34,606 nt of DNA. Origin: a virus. The stretch is from IMG/VR virus record IMGVR_UViG_3300030390_000844, positions 1-34,606 of that record; one strand, written 5' to 3'. This document shows, one piece after another, positions 8,226-31,837 of the stretch. The stretch's first letter is position 1. Each line of letters begins with the position of its first letter. The position numbers and the translations under genes were made by a program. The notes beneath the pieces were generated by a model. It had not been told where the DNA came from. It searched no databases and saw nothing but the letters and a program-made list of their open reading frames with translations.

Positions 8226-8639
8226 CTATCTATATTCGTTAAACTCTTTTGATACATCAAAACACGGACATGTCTTGCTGCTTACTTCATTGTGTCCTAA
8301 AACCTTTACTCCTCCGAATACTACGTCTAGTGAAGCTACTAGCTGTTGTAGCGCTTGCTTCTGAATACTCGTTCTCGTGTCCATTGGTTTTCTATGTTCA
8401 ACACACATCCCACCTACGTAGACAATGCCTATTGAACCTTGGTTGTGACCCTTAGCGTGAGCTCCAATCTTATCAAGTGGTCTTCCTGCCTGTATAGTCC
8501 CGTCTATCTTAATCAAGTAATGATAACCGATGTCTGACCAACCCTTAGCCTTATGCCATGCTCTAATGTCATCTACATCATGTTCACGGCCTTCAGGTGT
8601 GTAAGTGGTGTGTAGTATAATTTCTTTTATTGGTCTCAT
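8226..8639 (-). CDS. N-acetylmuramoyl-L-alanine amidase (T7-lysozyme type endolysin)
   Basis: A 137-residue single-domain amidase_2 protein, close to the length of T7 lysozyme. It cuts the amide bond between MurNAc and the peptide stem at lysis. Zinc ligands are visible as H10 (IILHTT), H116 (LGHNEV) and C124 (KTCPCFD), with the 8-residue H-to-C spacing of T7 lysozyme. GWSDIGYHYLI supplies the conserved Tyr, and K122 corresponds to the catalytic Lys. No signal peptide is present, so a holin is needed; one is found at 28887. The start ATG overlaps the upstream stop as ATGA. The gene runs against the structural genes on either side. Confidence 0.93.
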   Translation of the reverse strand: MRPIKEIILHTTYTPEGREHDVDDIRAWHKAKGWSDIGYHYLIKIDGTIQAGRPLDKIGAHAKGHNQGSIGIVYVGGMCVEHRKPMDTRTSIQKQALQQLVASLDVVFGGVKVLGHNEVSSKTCPCFDVSKEFNEYR

Positions 8640-20574: not shown

Positions 20575-20602
20575 TACTATCACATAAACAGTGGTAGACA
20601 TT

Positions 20603-23600
20603 ATGAACGATCAGGCCCTAAAGGACTCATACCAACAATTCACAGACACAGGTTACTCAGGTAGCTTGGAAGACTTTAAGACTCTTATCTCCTCTAACGA
20701 GGACGCTCGTAATGATGCACACAAACTTTTCACCTCGACAGGGTACGATGGTTCTATAGAGGACTTCGGAACGCTAGTCGGAATCAACTCTCCTAAAAAA
20801 AAAGATTCTACGGATTTGTCTTCGGACGATTCAGCTTGGGACTCTCTATCAATTGATACTGAGCCTGTTGGGTTCGCTCAAGGTTCAGGTGAGATCAATG
20901 AAGGTACGGTAGATGCACAGCGTAATCAAGCAGCTGAAGGAGATATCACAGTAAACAAAGGTCGTAAGACACAGGCTTTAGGTCAGGCTCTAGGCGAGAT
21001 GGCTAAAGAAGAAGAAGATGCAGTAGGTCGTTGGGCTAGATACCAAGATGGCTTAGATGTTGACGCTCCTAGTACTCAATCCACAACCAACCTTTCACCA
21101 TTCGCTGCTACATTAGCTCGTACAGATGAGAATGCTACTGAGAAGGAAATCAAAGACGCTAATACCGTTGATGAGGTTCGTGCTGCAGTTCGTAAGAGTA
21201 ACGCTGAAAAGGTAAACGTTGCTTACGATGATGCTATGTCTGACAACGACAAGGCTACTAATACAGATTCAGAATTTACAGAAGACGGTAAGAAAACCAA
21301 AGGTGGTCTTATTGAAACTGATGAAGAAGGTAATACTATATTCAACGAAAAGAACTTAGGTTTGACTCTAATGGATATGGATGCTGTTGCAACCAAAGAA
21401 GCTGCTAGTGTAGCTCGTGAGGCAGCAAGAGTAGAAGGTAGTAGTGTATTGGGCTTAGTTGCTCATGACATGGCTACAGGTATCATGGACATCACTAACT
21501 CGGTACAAGGTGTGTACGATAGAGAGGGAGCTCAAGATGACATGTACGAAAACACATTCAGAACACAAGCATCTTACAAAGAGTACGGATTAACAGAAGA
21601 GGAAATAGGTAAGGGTGTTTCAGAAAACTTAGCAGAGGGTAATATCTCAGCAGCATCTAAGGTGTTCGCTGTTCAGGCTGCACAGACAGTACCTCAGTTA
21701 TTATCACAAGTTGCTATTGCATATGCTACAGGTGGTCTAGGAGCTAGCGCTTCTGCATCTATGTGGGCATCTTCAGGGTTCATGGGAGCTACTACATTCG
21801 GACGTACTTGGGCTGATACCTATGGACAGATGGATAACAGCAAAGCATTCATGTTAGCTCTAGGAGACGCAGCAGCAGAGACTTTATCAGAGAGATTGTT
21901 TACCAGTGATGTTAAAGCACTTAGTGGTGTTGGAGCTGTTGCAGGTAAGACTCGTAATGAGATCAAGGACATGTTGTTTGCTAAAGGTCTTCTATCTAAG
22001 GAGTTCGGTAACTTCGGAATCACTGCAGTCAAAGGTGCTGTAATGGGTGGTGCTGAGGAAGGTCTAGAAGAGATCATCGCTACAGTAGGTTCAGGTATTG
22101 TTCATGCAGCTGTCAATGACGAAGAGATAAACCTTTATGAGGTTATGGATTCAGCTATCATTGGTTTCGGTATGGGTATGGGGTCTAACGTTGCAGGAGC
22201 TGCCTTCAAAGGTAAAGGTCTATTAACTGCAGGTGTTTCTGCTTTGGGTTACGGTGGTCTTCGTTCTGAGTTGGTTAAGATCAAGTCAAACAAAACTAAG
22301 CTAGCTAAAGAGTTAACAGAGACTTCTGATGCTGCTAGAAAAGAAGTGCTTATCGGGAAGATTAAAGCTCTTGAAGGATTAGAGATGCAAATTGCTAAAG
22401 ATACAGAAGCTGCTTATGATAGTTATTCTGATAGTGATGCTAAGACTACAATAGAAGCTAATCAAAAGTTAAGTAATATATTATATAAATTAAGAAACAA
22501 TACAAATAATTTAACTAAGGAAGAAAAGATATCTCTAACAAAGCAGGCGCAAGAGCAGTTTGGGATAATTAACAGCGTTGAGGCAAAGTATGAAGGTGAG
22601 GTTGCTGCAATTAAAACACAACAAGCAGAGAATACAGAGTTCTTAAACGGAATGGAAAGTAGTGTTGAGGTATCTGAAACAACAGAACTTCCTAACACAC
22701 CATTGATGAGAGGTATCAAGAACGTTGCTAAAGCATTAGCTAACAAGGGTACTAAGGTATTTATTCACAGAAATCTAGACGATGCTGCTGAGGTTTCAGG
22801 AGCTGATAAGCTAGATCTTGCAGGGTCTAATGGATTCTACAAAGCAGAAGATGGTACTATTCACATTATGGCTAGTTTGGCACAGAATAATACAGCTTAC
22901 CATGAGGGATTCCACGATATACTACGTGATGTTTCTCCTGATTATGCTAAGAGATTTGTTGATGCTGCACTAAGAGGAATGGATTCAGATACAGCTGCTA
23001 AGTATAAAGCTATCTATGCTTCTAACATGAAGTCTGGTGGACAGAAACTAGCAGTAGAAGAAGTATTCGCTGAGATCCAAGCTGACATAGCTGTAGGAGC
23101 TATCAGTGAGACAGGAGCTGGGACATCAGTTGTTCGTGCTGCAATGGAGTCTGTTAAGAAGAGTTTAAACGCTCTAGGTATTCCTGTAAAGCCAACAGCT
23201 TCTTTCAAGGAGTTCGTTAACTTCGTAGGATCTGTAAACAAAGACTTCACAACAGGTACTACGGCAACGGCTTCTAAGGGTAAGTTTGGTAGCAACGAGA
23301 TTACTACAGAGAACTTCATGCAGATGAGTGCTAAGGCAGTTGATGCATTGAAGACAGCAACAGAGGCTCAGTTCACAGTAGCTAAAGGAAAGAAACTTAA
23401 TGGATCATTTATAAACTCTAACACTACCTTCACCAACTTGGCTGAGGTTGTAGAGACATTCAAGAAAGAAAACGGACGTGCTCCAAAGGTATTGTTCTGG
23501 ATGGGTGACCAATCGGCAAGAGGAGCTTATGCTACTTCTGATGGTACTAACATCGACTTAGAGGGTGGTATATCTTTCTCTCAAGATCCTGCTAACACTG

Positions 23601-26600
23601 ACAACGGTGTAGTATGGGCAACTAACAAGAACAACAACGAAGTACAAGGTCTAGTTAAAGATGCTGACATCGTAGCTATTGTATCGGGTAAGCCTGAAAC
23701 AGGACACAGATTCTACAAAGGAACTTCTGTTGTTATCGGTACTGAGTTGATGGAGGCGTTTAACAGAAACAAAGGTCAGTCTATCGAGTACCCACAACGT
23801 GGTGGTGCATTCAACTTTGAAATACCTACTGAGGGTTTCACTGATCCTTTACAGGCTATGCAGTTCTTCTACTCTACTCTATCAGAGAAGGGCTTAGACT
23901 TTGTTGCAGCACAGGAGTTTATCGAGAACTCAAAAGGATTCGCTACACAAGCTGAGTATTTAGCTCAGTCTAAGGGTGATCGTATGGGTGCTTTGAATTA
24001 CTTCTTAGAGCCTAGCATAACTGCTGATGCATTCTTCTCTAACTTGGGAATGAAGCCAATGGCAGACGTACAGACTGAAATGCGTGATGGTTACTTAGTA
24101 GAGAATGAGTTCACTACAGGAGACATCTATGCGTTCTACCAGTTCACTAGAGATGCTGACGGTAAAGTAGAAACTGCTGACGGTAATCACTCTACTTACT
24201 CAACAGATATAAAAGGTAAAGCATTAGGTATTGCTAACCGTAGAGATAACATCTATCAGGTTGCTGACTTAGGTGCATCTACTACTTCAGAAAATAAACT
24301 ATCAGGTTCTTCTAAATTAGAATTACTTAAGGAAGAAGGATACGTAACACAAGCTCAGATTGACGAGGTTAACAGCCTAGAACAAGCAGAGCAAGGTAAA
24401 GCTAAGAACGCATTAATCAGAAAAGCCTCTGTAGAGGTTAAGAAGGATGGTAACGAGCTGTTGACTAGTAGGTTAACTAACAAGGGTGGTTACATTTCAG
24501 CTGAGACTGCAGGTGATAAGTCACTTAAGAGAATTGTATCTGATGCAGGTACTGCTTATGATGGTCAGACTTTACTAGAATCATTAATTGCAGGTCAAAC
24601 TGCTGATGGCCGTCAAGAGGCATTGAACAAGGCTGCGGCTGAGTTGGTTGCTGAAGGTAAGGCTAAAGAAGTTGAGTTCAAGAAAGGTAAGAACAAGTTC
24701 ACAGAGAGCTCACTACCTGTAGGTCTAGTACTTGAGAGAGCTGCTAGAAACGAAGATGTATCTTTTGACTCTATGGCTACCTCTGTTAATGCAGAGACTA
24801 AGCGTAAAGCATCTATACTACACCAAGCTACTATCATCATTGAGATAGCAGAGAGAATATTATTAGGTGAAAAGAAAGCCGCTATAGTTGCTAGCTTGCG
24901 TGCTAAGGGCATGAGTTCTGCTGATGCTAACTTAGTATACGCTAAGTCTGCTCAGTACGCTAAAGGAGCTAAGAAAGGCTGGACTGAAGGAACTAGAGAG
25001 CGTAGTGCTCAACATGCTGCCAAGCGTAAAGCTGAGCGTAAGCAAGAGAGTGCCAAGGCTAAAGACTTCCGTAAGAAAGCTGCAGCAATACTTAACCAAG
25101 AGAAGAAAACAGGTGATGTTATACTACGTGAGATAGCTAACCTAATCAAAGAAGCAGGTGTCGAGATTAAAGCATCTCAGGTGAATACGTTAATCCGTAT
25201 CGCTAAGAAGGTTGCTAGAGTTAAAGGACGTTCTGTATTAGATACTGAAGCAAGATATGAGCTACTTAACTCTATCACAGACAAAGTAGTTAAGATTATA
25301 GATAAGCAAATTACTGCTAAGGAATTAGACGAGTACACTAACAGACTAAGAAAGGTAGAATCTGAGCAAAGAAAGCTAAGAGATAGGTTAACCAAACTTA
25401 AGAACAATAGTAGAAGTCCTCTAATTAGTTACGCAGATCAGATACTAGACATGACCAGCCTTAACGCTGCTATGTTATCTCCTGAGAGTTTAATACTCCT
25501 TGAGGCTAGTATAAAAGACTTACAAATTAGCACCAAGTCTGTATCAGTTACGGGTCAGAAGTTAGGAAAGCCTTACATATTTGTTGAGGGCCTAGGTAAC
25601 GTTGACGCAAGAAGAGCTAAGTTATACTTCAATGAGATTTACGAAAACCTTAAGGTTGAGGAAGTTGCATTACAGGAGAAGACACTTGTTGAGAAAGCAA
25701 CAGACTTAGCATTTGAGAATGATACTGACTGGGTAGCTGAGTATAATAACCTAATCAAGCAGATAAGCGAGAAGGATCTGAAAGGTGTTCAGAAGAAGTT
25801 GGCTGACATAGCTGAGGACTTGGGACTTGACCTTAACGATATCAATGACTTCGCTATCGCTGAGAAGATTTACTCTGAGGAGAAGACTGAGAAGTTGAAC
25901 TCACAGAAAGATGTTATAGTGAACGATGCAATCCTACCAACCTACATGAACTTCAGAAGACTGTTTGAGTCTAATGAGTCATTGGCTGCTATCTTTGGCG
26001 TACCTACTGATGTAGATGATGCTACTGCAGCTGAGATTGTTAAGGGACGTATGGAGAAGTTAACAGCACTAGAGCTTAAGAGATTAGAGTTCGGTATGTA
26101 TGACTTCGCTGTCAATGGCAAAGCATTAGGTATGTCTCAATTGGCTGCTATTATCACTGCCAAGAATGACAACAACCCTAAGCTAGCTAAGTTAGGTCTT
26201 AAGTCAAGAGAGAAAGAAGGAGCTGGTAAAGGAGTCTATAGTAGATTCGAGAACACTCCATCTTACTTCCGTAGATTATTCCTTGCATCTGAAGCTAAGA
26301 TAGCTCAGTTCATGGACATCGTTGGATTCTCTGAGTTACGTTCTGCCGTAGCACTTGCCGATAGCATTGCTAACACGATGGAAGAGGTTCTTATCGAGAG
26401 AGCTAAAGAGCTTGGTGTAGCATCATTATCTAGTCAGGTTAAGATACAAATACTAAGTGTTTTATCTCAGGTTCCTTCAGGTAAAAATAATACTCAGCAT
26501 CTTGCACAGGTTGTTGCTAGTTTAGAGTTAGCTTACTTGAGTGACAAGAGATTTGATGAGGACATGAAAGCTGAGGTACGTGCCGCATTAGACGAGGTAT

Positions 26601-28879
26601 TGTACGATGGTGGAAAGGGTAAGAACTATGACGATATCATAGCATCATTCGAGGGAACTAACGAGCTCCTAATGTTACAGGAACTACGTGGCCAGTTCGG
26701 TGCACAAGCCGTTATGACTAAGACTTACGCTGAAGAGTACTTAGGTATGAACTTCAAAGAGGAAGAGAACTACATGCCTATACGTATGCGTGCAGTAGGG
26801 TCTAACAACAATGACATTACTAGATTACAAGAAAACATAGAGAACATACAACAAGCCTACAGAAGCTACGGGTCTGCTCAGCAGAAACAAGCATCTTCTA
26901 CCTACGAGCGTAACGCTGAAGCAATGGGTAGTAAGACTAGGTATATAGACTTAAACTTCTATGACGGAGCTGCTAAAACTTTCCGTGAGAATGAAGTAAA
27001 AGCCAGAACAGCATCATCAATAGCTAAGTTATCTACCATGACATCTGAGGCTAACGAAGAGTTCAAAGCAGTCGTAACAGAGCCTGAGCAACGTCAGAAA
27101 GTACGTAAGAAGGTAATGTTATTCCTAACAGAGAACGCACAAGTTATAGAGCAACAAGATGAGTTGATCGGAACTAGCTTGAAGAAATTCTCTAAGGAGC
27201 TTAACAACCTTACAGTATTGTACTTCTTTGGTAGTGCAGTTATACAGGTGTTTAAGCAGTCTTCTGCTATCGCTAACACTGTCATAGAGGGTGGTAACTT
27301 CTTCACTGTTATGGGGTACGTTATGACCGCTGCAACAGGTAAGTATTCTTCAGGACAAAAAGCAGTAATGCAGAAGTCTGATATCGGTGGACGTGATTAC
27401 ATCAAGGAAACTGTAAGTGCTACCGTGAAGGGTAACGCAATGACTGAGAATGGTAAGTGGTCACGCATGAGAGGTAAGGCATTTGACCTATCTACATTGG
27501 GCCTAAGACAAGCCGATAAGGTTGCTGCTACAGCATCTTGGTTAGCTTACTTCGAACAATACCAGAGAAAAGAAAACGGATTCACAGGTGAGGTTAATGA
27601 CGAGCAATGGAGAGCATGGTCTGTAGATTATGATGGTGCTGCTGCTGATTACGCTACATTGATGGTTACAAAGGATCAGAATGTATCTACTAGTCGTGAC
27701 AAGTCAGAGTTCCGTAACATGAACTCAGGTCAGGTTGCTCAGTTTATCCAGATGATTGTTATGCCATTTGCTAACTTCCTTATTAACAAGAAGTTAAACC
27801 TTATGTTGGATTTCCAGAAACTAGGGAAAGGTGAGACCAGAGTAGAGGCTATCAAGTCTATCGGTGGTACAGCTCTTGAGGTTGCTGCATTCCACGGAGT
27901 GTCTCAGTTTGTTATCGCTCCAATGATTCAAGCTCTTGTTGCTGCCATAGGTGGTGGAGAAGAAGAGGAAGAAGATTCATGGTTTGATGCTGAGTTCAGA
28001 TGGGGATTATTCAAGAAGGGTATGCTGTCTGATTTGAATCCATTGGTTATGCCTGTAGGCGCTATGGAGTCTTGGGCTACTACTGCTTACAACATGGTTG
28101 ACTTTATGGCTACTGATGAAGCTAGAGAGTATGAGTTCGAAGATAGAAGTTGGTACGAGAATTTCCAAGCGTGGGAAACTGTAAACGGAATGCCTAAGTT
28201 CAATGGAGCAGGTAGAGGAGATATGAATTGGATTACTGCCCTAAAAGGTGGTGGTGTATACGGAGACGTTACAGTGGAGCTTGCTCTATCCGCTCTTAAC
28301 CTTAAGACATTAGCTGAGAAAAACCCTTACTACGTTACAACGTTTGGAACTAAGAAGTACCTATCTAGCAAGGATGCTAAGAGCATGATGAAGTTAGAGG
28401 GAGCTAAGCTATCAATGATGACCATCGGAGGCTTTACAGGGCTATTCTCGAAAGAGGCAATGGCTGCTATAAAAGGACGTGAGCGTCAAGTTGGTAAGAG
28501 AGGAATCACTAATGAGAACGAGGCTATCGGTAGAATGATTATCAACGAAGGTAAGGGAACAGATTTAATGACTGACAAGATTGTTCAGAAAGCTAAGTCT
28601 AACCCATTAGCAGTTGAGTCTACAGTGAGAGCTATAGTAGGTGACAAGGTTGTTAAAAGCGTAACAGCAGATAAACTACCAAGCCCTAAGTATATTAACA
28701 CTATCCGTGATATTGCAGTTAAGACTCAAGACCCACGTGATGCAGCTCTAGCAGCTAAGGTTGTAATGATGAGTATGTCTCCAGCTGAGGCAGAAGAGTT
28801 CAAGTCAGACTTCCTTAAGTACATCGTACTGAAACAAGGAGAGAGTGCAGTAGCAAATATAGCAATGATATTAAAATAG
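20603..28879 (+). CDS. Giant internal virion / ejection protein with HExxH metallopeptidase-like domain
   Basis: About 2758 residues; ATG 20603 is preferred over GTG 20591. Visible parts, in order: two 30-residue repeats at 13-28 and 43-58 (F-T-x-T-G-Y-x-G-S-x-E-D-F-x-T-L); hydrophobic helices at ~355-405 and ~518-540; a zincin-like site YHEGFHDIL with H767, E768, H771 and acidic candidates E819/E820/E824 in VEEVFAEIQAD; a very basic helical stretch ~1447-1503; a coiled coil ~1565-1605; hydrophobic helices ~2200-2245 and ~2423-2453, the last followed by a GGGEEEEED run. Position and size match the largest ejection protein of podoviruses (T7 gp16, P22 gp16, N4 virion polymerase) and the giant cargo proteins of crAss-like phages. 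No DxDGD-type RNA polymerase motif was seen. Protease activity is inferred. Confidence 0.82.
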   Translation: MNDQALKDSYQQFTDTGYSGSLEDFKTLISSNEDARNDAHKLFTSTGYDGSIEDFGTLVGINSPKKKDSTDLSSDDSAWDSLSIDTEPVGFAQGSGEINEGTVDAQRNQAAEGDITVNKGRKTQALGQALGEMAKEEEDAVGRWARYQDGLDVDAPSTQSTTNLSPFAATLARTDENATEKEIKDANTVDEVRAAVRKSNAEKVNVAYDDAMSDNDKATNTDSEFTEDGKKTKGGLIETDEEGNTIFNEKNLGLTLMDMDAVATKEAASVAREAARVEGSSVLGLVAHDMATGIMDITNSVQGVYDREGAQDDMYENTFRTQASYKEYGLTEEEIGKGVSENLAEGNISAASKVFAVQAAQTVPQLLSQVAIAYATGGLGASASASMWASSGFMGATTFGRTWADTYGQMDNSKAFMLALGDAAAETLSERLFTSDVKALSGVGAVAGKTRNEIKDMLFAKGLLSKEFGNFGITAVKGAVMGGAEEGLEEIIATVGSGIVHAAVNDEEINLYEVMDSAIIGFGMGMGSNVAGAAFKGKGLLTAGVSALGYGGLRSELVKIKSNKTKLAKELTETSDAARKEVLIGKIKALEGLEMQIAKDTEAAYDSYSDSDAKTTIEANQKLSNILYKLRNNTNNLTKEEKISLTKQAQEQFGIINSVEAKYEGEVAAIKTQQAENTEFLNGMESSVEVSETTELPNTPLMRGIKNVAKALANKGTKVFIHRNLDDAAEVSGADKLDLAGSNGFYKAEDGTIHIMASLAQNNTAYHEGFHDILRDVSPDYAKRFVDAALRGMDSDTAAKYKAIYASNMKSGGQKLAVEEVFAEIQADIAVGAISETGAGTSVVRAAMESVKKSLNALGIPVKPTASFKEFVNFVGSVNKDFTTGTTATASKGKFGSNEITTENFMQMSAKAVDALKTATEAQFTVAKGKKLNGSFINSNTTFTNLAEVVETFKKENGRAPKVLFWMGDQSARGAYATSDGTNIDLEGGISFSQDPANTDNGVVWATNKNNNEVQGLVKDADIVAIVSGKPETGHRFYKGTSVVIGTELMEAFNRNKGQSIEYPQRGGAFNFEIPTEGFTDPLQAMQFFYSTLSEKGLDFVAAQEFIENSKGFATQAEYLAQSKGDRMGALNYFLEPSITADAFFSNLGMKPMADVQTEMRDGYLVENEFTTGDIYAFYQFTRDADGKVETADGNHSTYSTDIKGKALGIANRRDNIYQVADLGASTTSENKLSGSSKLELLKEEGYVTQAQIDEVNSLEQAEQGKAKNALIRKASVEVKKDGNELLTSRLTNKGGYISAETAGDKSLKRIVSDAGTAYDGQTLLESLIAGQTADGRQEALNKAAAELVAEGKAKEVEFKKGKNKFTESSLPVGLVLERAARNEDVSFDSMATSVNAETKRKASILHQATIIIEIAERILLGEKKAAIVASLRAKGMSSADANLVYAKSAQYAKGAKKGWTEGTRERSAQHAAKRKAERKQESAKAKDFRKKAAAILNQEKKTGDVILREIANLIKEAGVEIKASQVNTLIRIAKKVARVKGRSVLDTEARYELLNSITDKVVKIIDKQITAKELDEYTNRLRKVESEQRKLRDRLTKLKNNSRSPLISYADQILDMTSLNAAMLSPESLILLEASIKDLQISTKSVSVTGQKLGKPYIFVEGLGNVDARRAKLYFNEIYENLKVEEVALQEKTLVEKATDLAFENDTDWVAEYNNLIKQISEKDLKGVQKKLADIAEDLGLDLNDINDFAIAEKIYSEEKTEKLNSQKDVIVNDAILPTYMNFRRLFESNESLAAIFGVPTDVDDATAAEIVKGRMEKLTALELKRLEFGMYDFAVNGKALGMSQLAAIITAKNDNNPKLAKLGLKSREKEGAGKGVYSRFENTPSYFRRLFLASEAKIAQFMDIVGFSELRSAVALADSIANTMEEVLIERAKELGVASLSSQVKIQILSVLSQVPSGKNNTQHLAQVVASLELAYLSDKRFDEDMKAEVRAALDEVLYDGGKGKNYDDIIASFEGTNELLMLQELRGQFGAQAVMTKTYAEEYLGMNFKEEENYMPIRMRAVGSNNNDITRLQENIENIQQAYRSYGSAQQKQASSTYERNAEAMGSKTRYIDLNFYDGAAKTFRENEVKARTASSIAKLSTMTSEANEEFKAVVTEPEQRQKVRKKVMLFLTENAQVIEQQDELIGTSLKKFSKELNNLTVLYFFGSAVIQVFKQSSAIANTVIEGGNFFTVMGYVMTAATGKYSSGQKAVMQKSDIGGRDYIKETVSATVKGNAMTENGKWSRMRGKAFDLSTLGLRQADKVAATASWLAYFEQYQRKENGFTGEVNDEQWRAWSVDYDGAAADYATLMVTKDQNVSTSRDKSEFRNMNSGQVAQFIQMIVMPFANFLINKKLNLMLDFQKLGKGETRVEAIKSIGGTALEVAAFHGVSQFVIAPMIQALVAAIGGGEEEEEDSWFDAEFRWGLFKKGMLSDLNPLVMPVGAMESWATTAYNMVDFMATDEAREYEFEDRSWYENFQAWETVNGMPKFNGAGRGDMNWITALKGGGVYGDVTVELALSALNLKTLAEKNPYYVTTFGTKKYLSSKDAKSMMKLEGAKLSMMTIGGFTGLFSKEAMAAIKGRERQVGKRGITNENEAIGRMIINEGKGTDLMTDKIVQKAKSNPLAVESTVRAIVGDKVVKSVTADKLPSPKYINTIRDIAVKTQDPRDAALAAKVVMMSMSPAEAEEFKSDFLKYIVLKQGESAVANIAMILK

Positions 28880-30249: not shown

Positions 30250-30588
30250 TTATTTAACGAATCTGAAGTATCTGTCAGTCACTAGTTTAATGATTACCAA
30301 TAGCGATATTGATACTAAGAACGTCAGAACAGGTGCGTTATTTCCTATCGCTGCCCATCCGAATGTACCCATGAACAAGCTATACAATATTATGTAAACC
30401 TCGTTAGGAACCCTTACTAACTTAGCCTTTACTCTTTGTCGTAAAACAGTTTTCAATGCCGTAGCCATGTTCGTTCCTTCTGCCATATCTAGATGTCGCT
30501 TTCCGTGAGCATCATACCATATGACTTCATACTTCTTCACTCCGTTAACCTCGTTAACCAAAGTGGCCTTCTCTGCAAAAGCCTTCAT
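30250..30588 (-). CDS. Small membrane protein with two C-terminal helices
   Basis: A 112-residue protein started at ATG 30588 because that start overlaps the preceding TAA as TAATG; ATG 30606 would add six residues. Residues 1-60 form a small soluble alpha/beta part (KKYEVIWYDAHGKRHLDMAE). Two hydrophobic helices follow (VYIILYSLFMGTFGWAAIG and LTFLVSISLLVIIKLV), with a short basic tail. It is last in the envelope cassette before a terminator. No family is recognised; an inner-membrane location is inferred. Confidence 0.68.
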   Translation of the reverse strand: MKAFAEKATLVNEVNGVKKYEVIWYDAHGKRHLDMAEGTNMATALKTVLRQRVKAKLVRVPNEVYIILYSLFMGTFGWAAIGNNAPVLTFLVSISLLVIIKLVTDRYFRFVK

Positions 30589-30827
30589 TACAAGAAGAAA
30601 GTCCAAGTCGTGTCTAGTACTGCATCGTTAACGCTGAGGTCTAAGCTCAGGTTGTCAAACGAATCTACTAAATCTTGTGCCTCACCTAGTAATGTTGTTG
30701 GGGCTATAGTATCTGTGACTGATTCACCTGACTCTAGTTCCCAGACGATTACACGTCCTACACTGTCAATTGGTTCGCAGCTTGCAAATGCTAGAGCTAC
30801 GATGCTAAATAGAATTACTTTTCTCAT
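30588..30827 (-). CDS. Small lipoprotein
   Basis: A 79-residue protein with a lipoprotein signal MRKVILFSIVALAFASCEP: basic start, hydrophobic core, and a Cys at residue 17 after F-A-S, which fits the loose lipobox of Bacteroidota. The mature part is acidic (DSVGRVIVWELESGESVTD). Small phage lipoproteins are often outer-membrane spanin subunits or superinfection-exclusion factors; either fits. It is coupled by TAATG to a membrane protein, an arrangement that also suits a spanin pair in reverse order. Function is unproven. Confidence 0.7.
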   Translation of the reverse strand: MRKVILFSIVALAFASCEPIDSVGRVIVWELESGESVTDTIAPTTLLGEAQDLVDSFDNLSLDLSVNDAVLDTTWTFFL

Positions 30828-30839
30828 ATTAATTGTTGT

Positions 30840-31043
30840 TTAATTTAATGAAGTTGATAAAAATGATTTGTCGATAAGTGGCTGATAGCGAGTATCAGGG
30901 AAGAACACCCTTGTTATGTAGATACCGCTAGGCATTTGAGGAGCTATATAAACATCAAGTGGGCTAACCCCACGTTTCATCATGAGTAGCCTGCCTGCCA
31001 TGTCGAAGAGCTGAAAGTCTATGAGGCCATCATATTCCTCCAA
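30840..31043 (-). CDS. T9SS type-A sorting-domain-like segment (probable -1 frame continuation)
   Basis: The only start in this 67-codon frame is TTG 31043; the open frame itself reaches upstream to 31097, 27 bases into the gene at 31070-31837. The reading VNGGIFRIGGLEEYDGLIDF, QLFDMAGRLL, then QMPSGIYITRVFF and DKSFL follows the T9SS C-terminal sorting domain pattern (v-x-i-y-D-x-x-G-r-l ... L-p-s-G-i-Y-i-t-r-v). With no ATG and a directly overlapping signal-peptide gene in the 0 frame, this is best read as its C terminus, reached by a -1 frameshift or separated from it by a mutation or sequence error. Confidence 0.6.
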   Translation of the reverse strand: MEEYDGLIDFQLFDMAGRLLMMKRGVSPLDVYIAPQMPSGIYITRVFFPDTRYQPLIDKSFLSTSLN

Positions 31044-31069
31044 CCCTCCGATCCTGAATATACCTCCGT

Positions 31070-31837
31070 TTACTTTACGTAGATACGGAATGGATTCTCA
31101 TTAACATTCGTTACGTTAATGTAGATGTCCTCTTCGTAAGACTGACCACTACTATTACGTGTTGCCTTAACTTTAACTACTACCCACTCATTCTTCTCAT
31201 GGTCGAGAGGAGCTGTGATTTGCAGTTGATCATTCTGTACTAAGTAAATAGGTAGTGTAGTAGATACTCCGTTAACAACAGAGTAAGGTGTTCCATCTAT
31301 AGATAGTATCTCCAAGGTAACTTTGTTCTTGTTGATCTTCTTAGCAGTGTTGTTGTTCTTAGTCCACCAAGCAGACATAGTAGTAGTCATAACTAGATTA
31401 CTATTCTCTGGTACAATAACAGTATCTACCTGTATGTCATCTATATCCTTTCGCTTAACCACCACACGGGTAGCAACAGTCATGTCTAGACCGCCTGCAT
31501 CAGTTATAGTCGTATTGAACAGGTACTCATCCTTGGTATCCGCATCCATTGCGTTAACAGGTTCTATCTGTCCGATATCTCCATTAGCGCTAGTTACGTT
31601 TGCAGAGGCGGGTGTCATTGTAAATGCAGAACCCACACCATCAAAAGATATAGTTAAGTTATCCGCTCCATCTTCATCAGAGCCACCAAGGGTAGCGAAT
31701 GGGTCTGTCTCTCCATCCTCGACTTCGAAGTACAGGATGTCGCTTGGATTTACGTTTGAATTGATGCTGTCTATTTCGTTCTGTGCATAGGTAGTTGTTG
31801 TAGCTACTACTAAAGCTGTTAGGAATAAATTCTTCAT
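31070..31837 (-). CDS. Secreted Ig/cadherin-like protein, possible T9SS cargo
   Basis: A 255-residue protein with a clear signal peptide MKNLFLTALVVATTTTYAQ (cleavage likely after Gln19). The mature part is beta-rich with Asp/Gly/Asn-rich turns (EVEDGETDPFATLGGSDEDG; DADTKDEYLFNTTITDAGGL), like cadherin or Ig-type domains with calcium-binding turns. It ends NENPFRIYVK then TAA, while the -1 frame continues with a sorting-domain-like sequence. It begins one base after the previous stop. Phages rarely encode secreted Ig-domain proteins outside the virion; surface display on the infected cell is a possible role. Confidence 0.78.
   Translation of the reverse strand: MKNLFLTALVVATTTTYAQNEIDSINSNVNPSDILYFEVEDGETDPFATLGGSDEDGADNLTISFDGVGSAFTMTPASANVTSANGDIGQIEPVNAMDADTKDEYLFNTTITDAGGLDMTVATRVVVKRKDIDDIQVDTVIVPENSNLVMTTTMSAWWTKNNNTAKKINKNKVTLEILSIDGTPYSVVNGVSTTLPIYLVQNDQLQITAPLDHEKNEWVVVKVKATRNSSGQSYEEDIYINVTNVNENPFRIYVK

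Follow-up and report, generated by a model that had tools for sequence, protein, structure and literature searches.

Phage proteins tagged for the type IX secretion system (T9SS) are known already. The 2020 report on 'Cryophage' describes an endoglucanase, a GH39 protein and a PA14 protein as T9SS type A cargo (PMC7468147), and crAss-like contigs (cluster 2) have been mentioned with T9SS sorting domains (PMC6949934). Recoding of the kind considered below has precedents of its own: IS1222 relies on a -1 slip at A_AAG, and such a slip has also been observed in Bacillus cdd (PMC5009743). What appears to be new at the locus described here is that the tag lies in another reading frame and would depend on a ribosomal slip. 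We put at roughly three in four the probability that this accessory gene, carried by a Flavobacteriia-type podovirus, undergoes programmed -1 frameshifting at its stop codon; the slip would probably decide which copies of the protein reach the cell surface. None of the papers searched dealt with both T9SS and frameshifting, and no frame-split phage T9SS cargo was found among them. To our knowledge, programmed frameshifting has been little studied in the phylum of the probable host, in which translation initiation is unusual, with weak use of Shine-Dalgarno sequences.

Results

The window analysed here, that is, the whole stretch of DNA under study, spans positions 1-34606 of a virus record (IMGVR_UViG_3300030390_000844) with a total length of 62,108 bases. 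A 255-aa ORF on its minus strand (31837-31070), encoding a putative secreted cadherin-like protein, ends in frame 0 with ATC TAC GTA AAG TAA (IYVK-stop; TAA at 31072-31070). Its N-terminus, MKNLFLTALVVATTTTYAQ followed by NE, reads by eye as a signal peptide (31781-31837, minus strand), for which the counterpart in the relative introduced below is MKKIFLTALVVATTTTYAQ. Towards the C-terminus, a cadherin-like repeat (residues 202-242; 31112-31234, minus strand), followed by an NVNENPF linker, matched PF00028 at 25.0 bits in the window and 25.6 in the relative, against a cut-off of 28.8. The AlphaFold model of the 255-aa body was unusable (pLDDT 34), so the fold of the body rests on this sub-threshold Pfam match; of the Ig/cadherin-like domains proposed in the earlier note, the C-terminal repeat is what remains, weakly supported. 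The -1 frame is open from 31097 to 30840, and has neither ATG nor GTG near its beginning; TTG (31041-31043, minus strand) is the first usual start, and the early tail offers no other. The short ORF and its IYVK-stop end, the open frame, the missing ATG and the TTG at 31043 are all present as first described. From the junction, the -1 frame reads GTA AAC GGA GGT ATA TTC AGG ATC (K/VNGGIFRI, the slash marking the junction) and forms a 77-aa tail, VNGGIFRIGG...PSGIYITRV...SLN, that closes with TAA (30840-31073, minus strand). The Sec signal peptide, as read by eye, sits on frame 0 and would share a polypeptide with this tail only if a frameshift occurred.

A single close relative was found in IMG/VR. 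It is represented by the assemblies IMGVR_UViG_3300021389_000055 and IMGVR_UViG_3300021375_001216, which differ by 1 mismatch in 4,754 nt and are in effect one virus; our comparison of conservation rests on two distinct sequences. Body and tail had no match among the INPHARED phages, and searches of genome contigs with the tail and with the neighbouring phosphoesterase gave no relatives. Between window and relative the body is 87% and the tail 74% identical, 45% of frame-0 third positions and about one-third of tail positions outside the hairpin described below are changed, and dS is ~1.3-1.6. From ATG to tail stop, the cassette measures exactly 998 bp in both viruses, with no indel, the same stop position and a shared C_GTA_AAG_TAR site, and the question of whether relatives are fused or split was answered by an identical split in both assemblies. 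The relative carries a tandem stop (C_GTA_AAG_TAG_TAG), and this second in-frame stop speaks against simple readthrough. The -1 frame of the tail is under purifying selection (dN/dS 0.16 by NG86, against 0.054 for the body), with differences distributed 19/11/34 over the codon positions (p 0.0017), and the other two frames are full of stops.

We regard it as virtually certain that the frame split is real. In metagenome contigs, and at an A-rich site, one might suspect that a gene normally fused was split by an indel introduced during sequencing or assembly. Three assemblies, representing two diverged viruses, nevertheless show the identical split, and one of these viruses has an extra stop, which leaves this explanation close to refuted and hardly credible. 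It is also quite unlikely that both viruses inherited a true frameshift mutation together with a pseudogenised tail, making the 255-aa protein the only product. Such a history would accord with a short form that is complete and has a natural stop, even a tandem TAG TAG in the relative; it is at odds, however, with the dN/dS and codon-position bias of the tail at this level of dS, with the unbroken 998 bp and intact tail end, and with changes in the hairpin stem that preserve its pairing.

The tail is, with high confidence, a T9SS type A sorting domain (CTD), as the earlier note had proposed. TIGR04183 was the only NCBIfam match on the window tail, at 17.8-18.2 bits (E 0.0024 at 17.8) and so under the cut-off of 23, and it scored at the cut-off (23.2 bits) on the relative's; PF18962 gave no match on the window and 15.2 bits on the relative (cut-off 27). 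This was the HMM search suggested in the earlier note. A PDB sequence search with the tail profile had a single match, 8glk_D (E 0.022), which is the CTD of NucA within the T9SS translocon. We consider the comparison of folds, made on a predicted model, to be the stronger evidence. The AlphaFold model of the tail, built from two sequences (pLDDT 78, pTM 0.66), has the predicted beta-sandwich fold of a CTD: a Foldseek search of the whole PDB placed T9SS-associated structures at ranks 1, 2, 3, 5, 6, 7 and 9 of 897 matches, with 8glk_D (NucA) first, PorZ and RemZ next, and both mirolase CTD chains, the RgpB CTD and the RemA CTD also among the top nine. The E-values are modest (best 3.4e-3), in keeping with a length of 77 residues, and the argument lies in the specificity of the list. 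The window tail also has the GxY motif, as SGIYI, and in its first motif Y and the register are kept while PNP is replaced. A small unrelated beta-sandwich without a sorting signal, such as a virion-decoration Ig domain, could share several of these properties, type A CTDs being Ig-like, the window score falling under the curated cut-off and PNP missing. This is very unlikely, however, as the highest Foldseek ranks are mostly taken by T9SS-associated structures despite the very many Ig-like folds in the PDB, the relative's tail reaches the TIGR04183 cut-off, and the body has a predicted Sec signal peptide.

Other phage CTDs start with (I/V)YPNPxxxxLxI. The -1 fusion IYVKVNGGIFRI, i.e. IYVK/VNGGIFRI, aligns with IYPNPTKDILNI and other phage CTDs gap-free across the junction, and the fusion therefore restores the register of the first CTD motif. 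With a +2 event, V would be missing and the alignment would need a gap; were translation to begin at TTG 31043, the first strand would be absent. When 0-frame residues were added to the relative's tail, its score with a second T9SS model, NF038113, rose from 10.9 to 15.7 bits, far under that model's own cut-off, with an alignment that spans the junction.

On inspection, the sole site in the 27-nt overlap that allows tRNA re-pairing in the -1 frame is A_AAG (31073-31076, minus strand), which adjoins the stop in C_GTA_AAG_TAA. This is a weak tetramer and no heptamer. A heptamer slip was rejected by inspection (no X_XXY_YYZ), as was slippage of RNA polymerase (only AAA). The longest invariant run between the two viruses, 32 nt (31071-31102, minus strand), has the slip site and the stop's first two bases at its end, and none of the last 10 frame-0 codons is changed at its third position, compared with 115/255 (45%) overall; a second identical run of 30 nt lies elsewhere in the gene, so the invariant 32 nt alone are not decisive. 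A DNA pattern search of IMG/VR for the slip site returned three matches beyond the two known contigs, all by chance. The split kept in the relative, the restored CTD register and the strong hairpin that follows all support the proposal that this is a T9SS cargo layout joined by an AAG-to-AAA slip.

Termination followed by reinitiation could instead make the tail a separate small protein, with its start at TTG 31043 or at some non-standard codon. Both viruses conserve this TTG and GGAGG-like sequences lie just 3' of the stop, but the TTG is part of the hairpin stem and follows GGAGG by one base, and no start codon occurs at normal spacing. Lacking the first CTD strand as well as a signal peptide, a product begun at the TTG would not be expected to use T9SS export, and the codons before the TTG complete the CTD motif only if joined to frame 0; we consider reinitiation unlikely.

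Frameshifting, the reading we prefer, directs attention to the RNA downstream. A sense-strand hairpin (31003-31051, minus strand) with a 15-16 bp stem, an AA/GA internal loop and 5 further bp starts 20-21 nt after AAG. Its 48-nt core folds at -23.3 kcal/mol (-24.6 in the relative), a value reached by 3 of 17,683 windows (0.017%) on both strands of the phage genome and, in each of the two sequences, by 0/1000 synonymous resamplings, which places its stability beyond coding demand. Because the stem contains G-U pairs, the antisense strand folds less stably (-4.4 for the window and -12.6 for the relative), which suggests an RNA element rather than a DNA palindrome. All three arm substitutions between the two viruses keep the pairing. 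Substitutions are fewer in the hairpin (5/47) than in the remaining tail (59/187; Fisher p 0.003), and the difference at third positions alone (4/16 versus 30/62) was not significant (p 0.16). Rfam gave no match, and we rejected a transcription terminator, as the hairpin is followed by no T run and was absent from the terminator scan.

Stimulators usually lie 5-9 nt from the slip site, and the 11-14 nt of cardio- and arteriviruses are at the long end (PMC5009743). A 3' structure at the usual spacing is a common feature that not every A_AAG site needs; here the conserved strong hairpin stands at 20-21 nt instead, so its stimulatory role is uncertain, and it forms the weakest step of the recoding case. 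We conjecture that an intermediate pseudoknot might close the long spacer, with GGAGGU, 5 nt after AAG, pairing with the apical loop (GGCCUC in the window, GGCUUC in the relative; duplex -8.2 and -5.5 kcal/mol, respectively). Either this is so or the hairpin acts differently, as a protein-bound block or in mRNA protection.

The cassette occupies two different loci that are empty in sister phages, and body and tail thus travel together, like a single accessory gene. Other contigs of the phage group were located via the neighbouring phosphoesterase gene; the fetched stretches of these related contigs contained neither body nor tail beyond the two known relatives, and searches over the full length of six related records did not find the body. 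In the relative, the cassette is flanked by a 132-aa gene and a 40-aa gene, which are direct neighbours in contigs L027 (7204/7207) and L030 (10342/10344). In the window, a 104-aa gene and a 118-aa gene enclose the cassette together with a 79-aa lipoprotein gene; the homologues of these two flanking genes overlap in L024 and L031. Window and relative resemble each other in DNA almost exactly over the cassette (window 31845-30853), not in the immediate flanks.

A few other genes were noted. The 79-aa lipoprotein-like gene directly after the cassette (30588-30827, minus strand; MRKVILFSIVALAFASCEP) had no match in six related phage records. A putative lipoprotein with the motif SCEQPTS (L021, 4283-4825, minus strand) resembles the relative's 143-aa SCSNEV lipoprotein (L001, 1740-2171) and a protein of L027 (5943-6374), and this type is likely a conserved surface lipoprotein of the phage group. 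The virion gene block includes a 2762-aa giant protein (20591-28879, plus strand) with no Pfam match. An N-acetylmuramoyl-L-alanine amidase (8226-8639, minus strand; Amidase_2, 50.7 bits), encoded on the strand opposite the structural genes, is likely the endolysin.

TerL is 43% identical to that of MW202828 and 38.5% to that of Elemovirus, and the capsid protein (MCP) shares ~30% identity with proteins of Callevirus, phi38:1 and Elemovirus. These relatives are phages of Flavobacterium and Cellulophaga, and a host among the Flavobacteriia, a group with T9SS, is therefore likely.

Discussion

The locus combines an overlapping -1 frame containing a slippery site with an arrangement conserved, under trans-frame selection, in two viruses, as programmed -1 frameshifting would have it. 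In the mechanism we propose, the stop occupies the A site when the P-site Lys-tRNA would shift its pairing from AAG to AAA, and termination at this adjacent stop would compete with the slip. Most ribosomes would terminate and yield the 255-aa Sec-exported protein, presumably periplasmic; a fraction would slip and yield a 332-aa protein ending in the T9SS type A sorting domain, which the host SprA/PorV translocon may then send to the cell surface. Likely stimulators would be the hairpin on the downstream side and the invariant run leading up to the slip site, and the slip ratio would set surface display. We lean towards the view that the phage sets the secretion route by frameshifting, one gene giving a Sec-only form and a T9SS-tagged surface form at a set ratio. 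The long form would most likely be displayed on the surface, where as an adhesin or blocker it would change adsorption, gliding or the host surface itself. It could alternatively be a decoy that occupies T9SS or masks receptors, and adhesin or decoy could limit superinfection. Superinfection exclusion or a block on gliding adhesins, as suggested in the earlier note, may be the purpose; any one specific function is doubtful.

If this model is right, the cassette works as a switch in which recoding adds a sorting signal for secretion, letting translation set the amount displayed on the surface and the phage exploit the gliding and secretion motor of its host. It would also supply a compact frameshift cassette for Flavobacteriia and a lead on host-surface remodelling by phages of gliding bacteria. 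Sorting domains placed in another frame can escape annotation.

All eight of the other CTDs that we checked in phages or viral contigs are in frame, three faecal scaffolds among them being 'unverified' records that may be bacterial. IMG/VR viral contigs L056-L058 encode a 445-aa signal-peptide protein with an in-frame T9SS CTD (IYPNPTKDILNIK), a further phage T9SS cargo. Two uncultured jumbo phages of ~640 kb (LR756502.1 and LR745206.1) likewise have a gene for a small secreted protein, 186-199 aa long, whose T9SS CTD is in frame. With these and the published cases (PMC7468147, PMC6949934), the earlier note's view that phage cargo for T9SS would be new falls away; its cargo layout and -1 slip are supported.

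With Cryophage and the crAss-like contigs, the locus shares a phage gene product carrying a T9SS type A sorting domain; the accessible part of the Cryophage report mentions no frame split, whereas here the cargo is cadherin-like and the CTD lies in the -1 frame (PMC7468147, PMC6949934). Like IS1222 (G_CGA_AAG) and Bacillus cdd (A_CGA_AAG), it would use the slip of a single Lys-tRNA from AAG to AAA and gain a C-terminal extension (PMC5009743). It differs from both in that the slip codon adjoins the stop (C_GTA_AAG), a secretion signal is appended and the hairpin stands at 20-21 nt. The tail shares with the TIGR04183 and PF18962 (Por_Secre_tail) families its fold, GxY motif, first-motif register and C-terminal position, but has IYVKV in place of YPNP, lies in a separate frame and, in the window copy, scores under the cut-off. 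Fraser, in 2006, is said to have described Ig-like domains added to phage proteins by -1 frameshifting; there too, a phage adds a beta-sandwich at low stoichiometry by recoding. Those domains reportedly decorate virions, whereas the one described here would be an export tag on a Sec-secreted protein.
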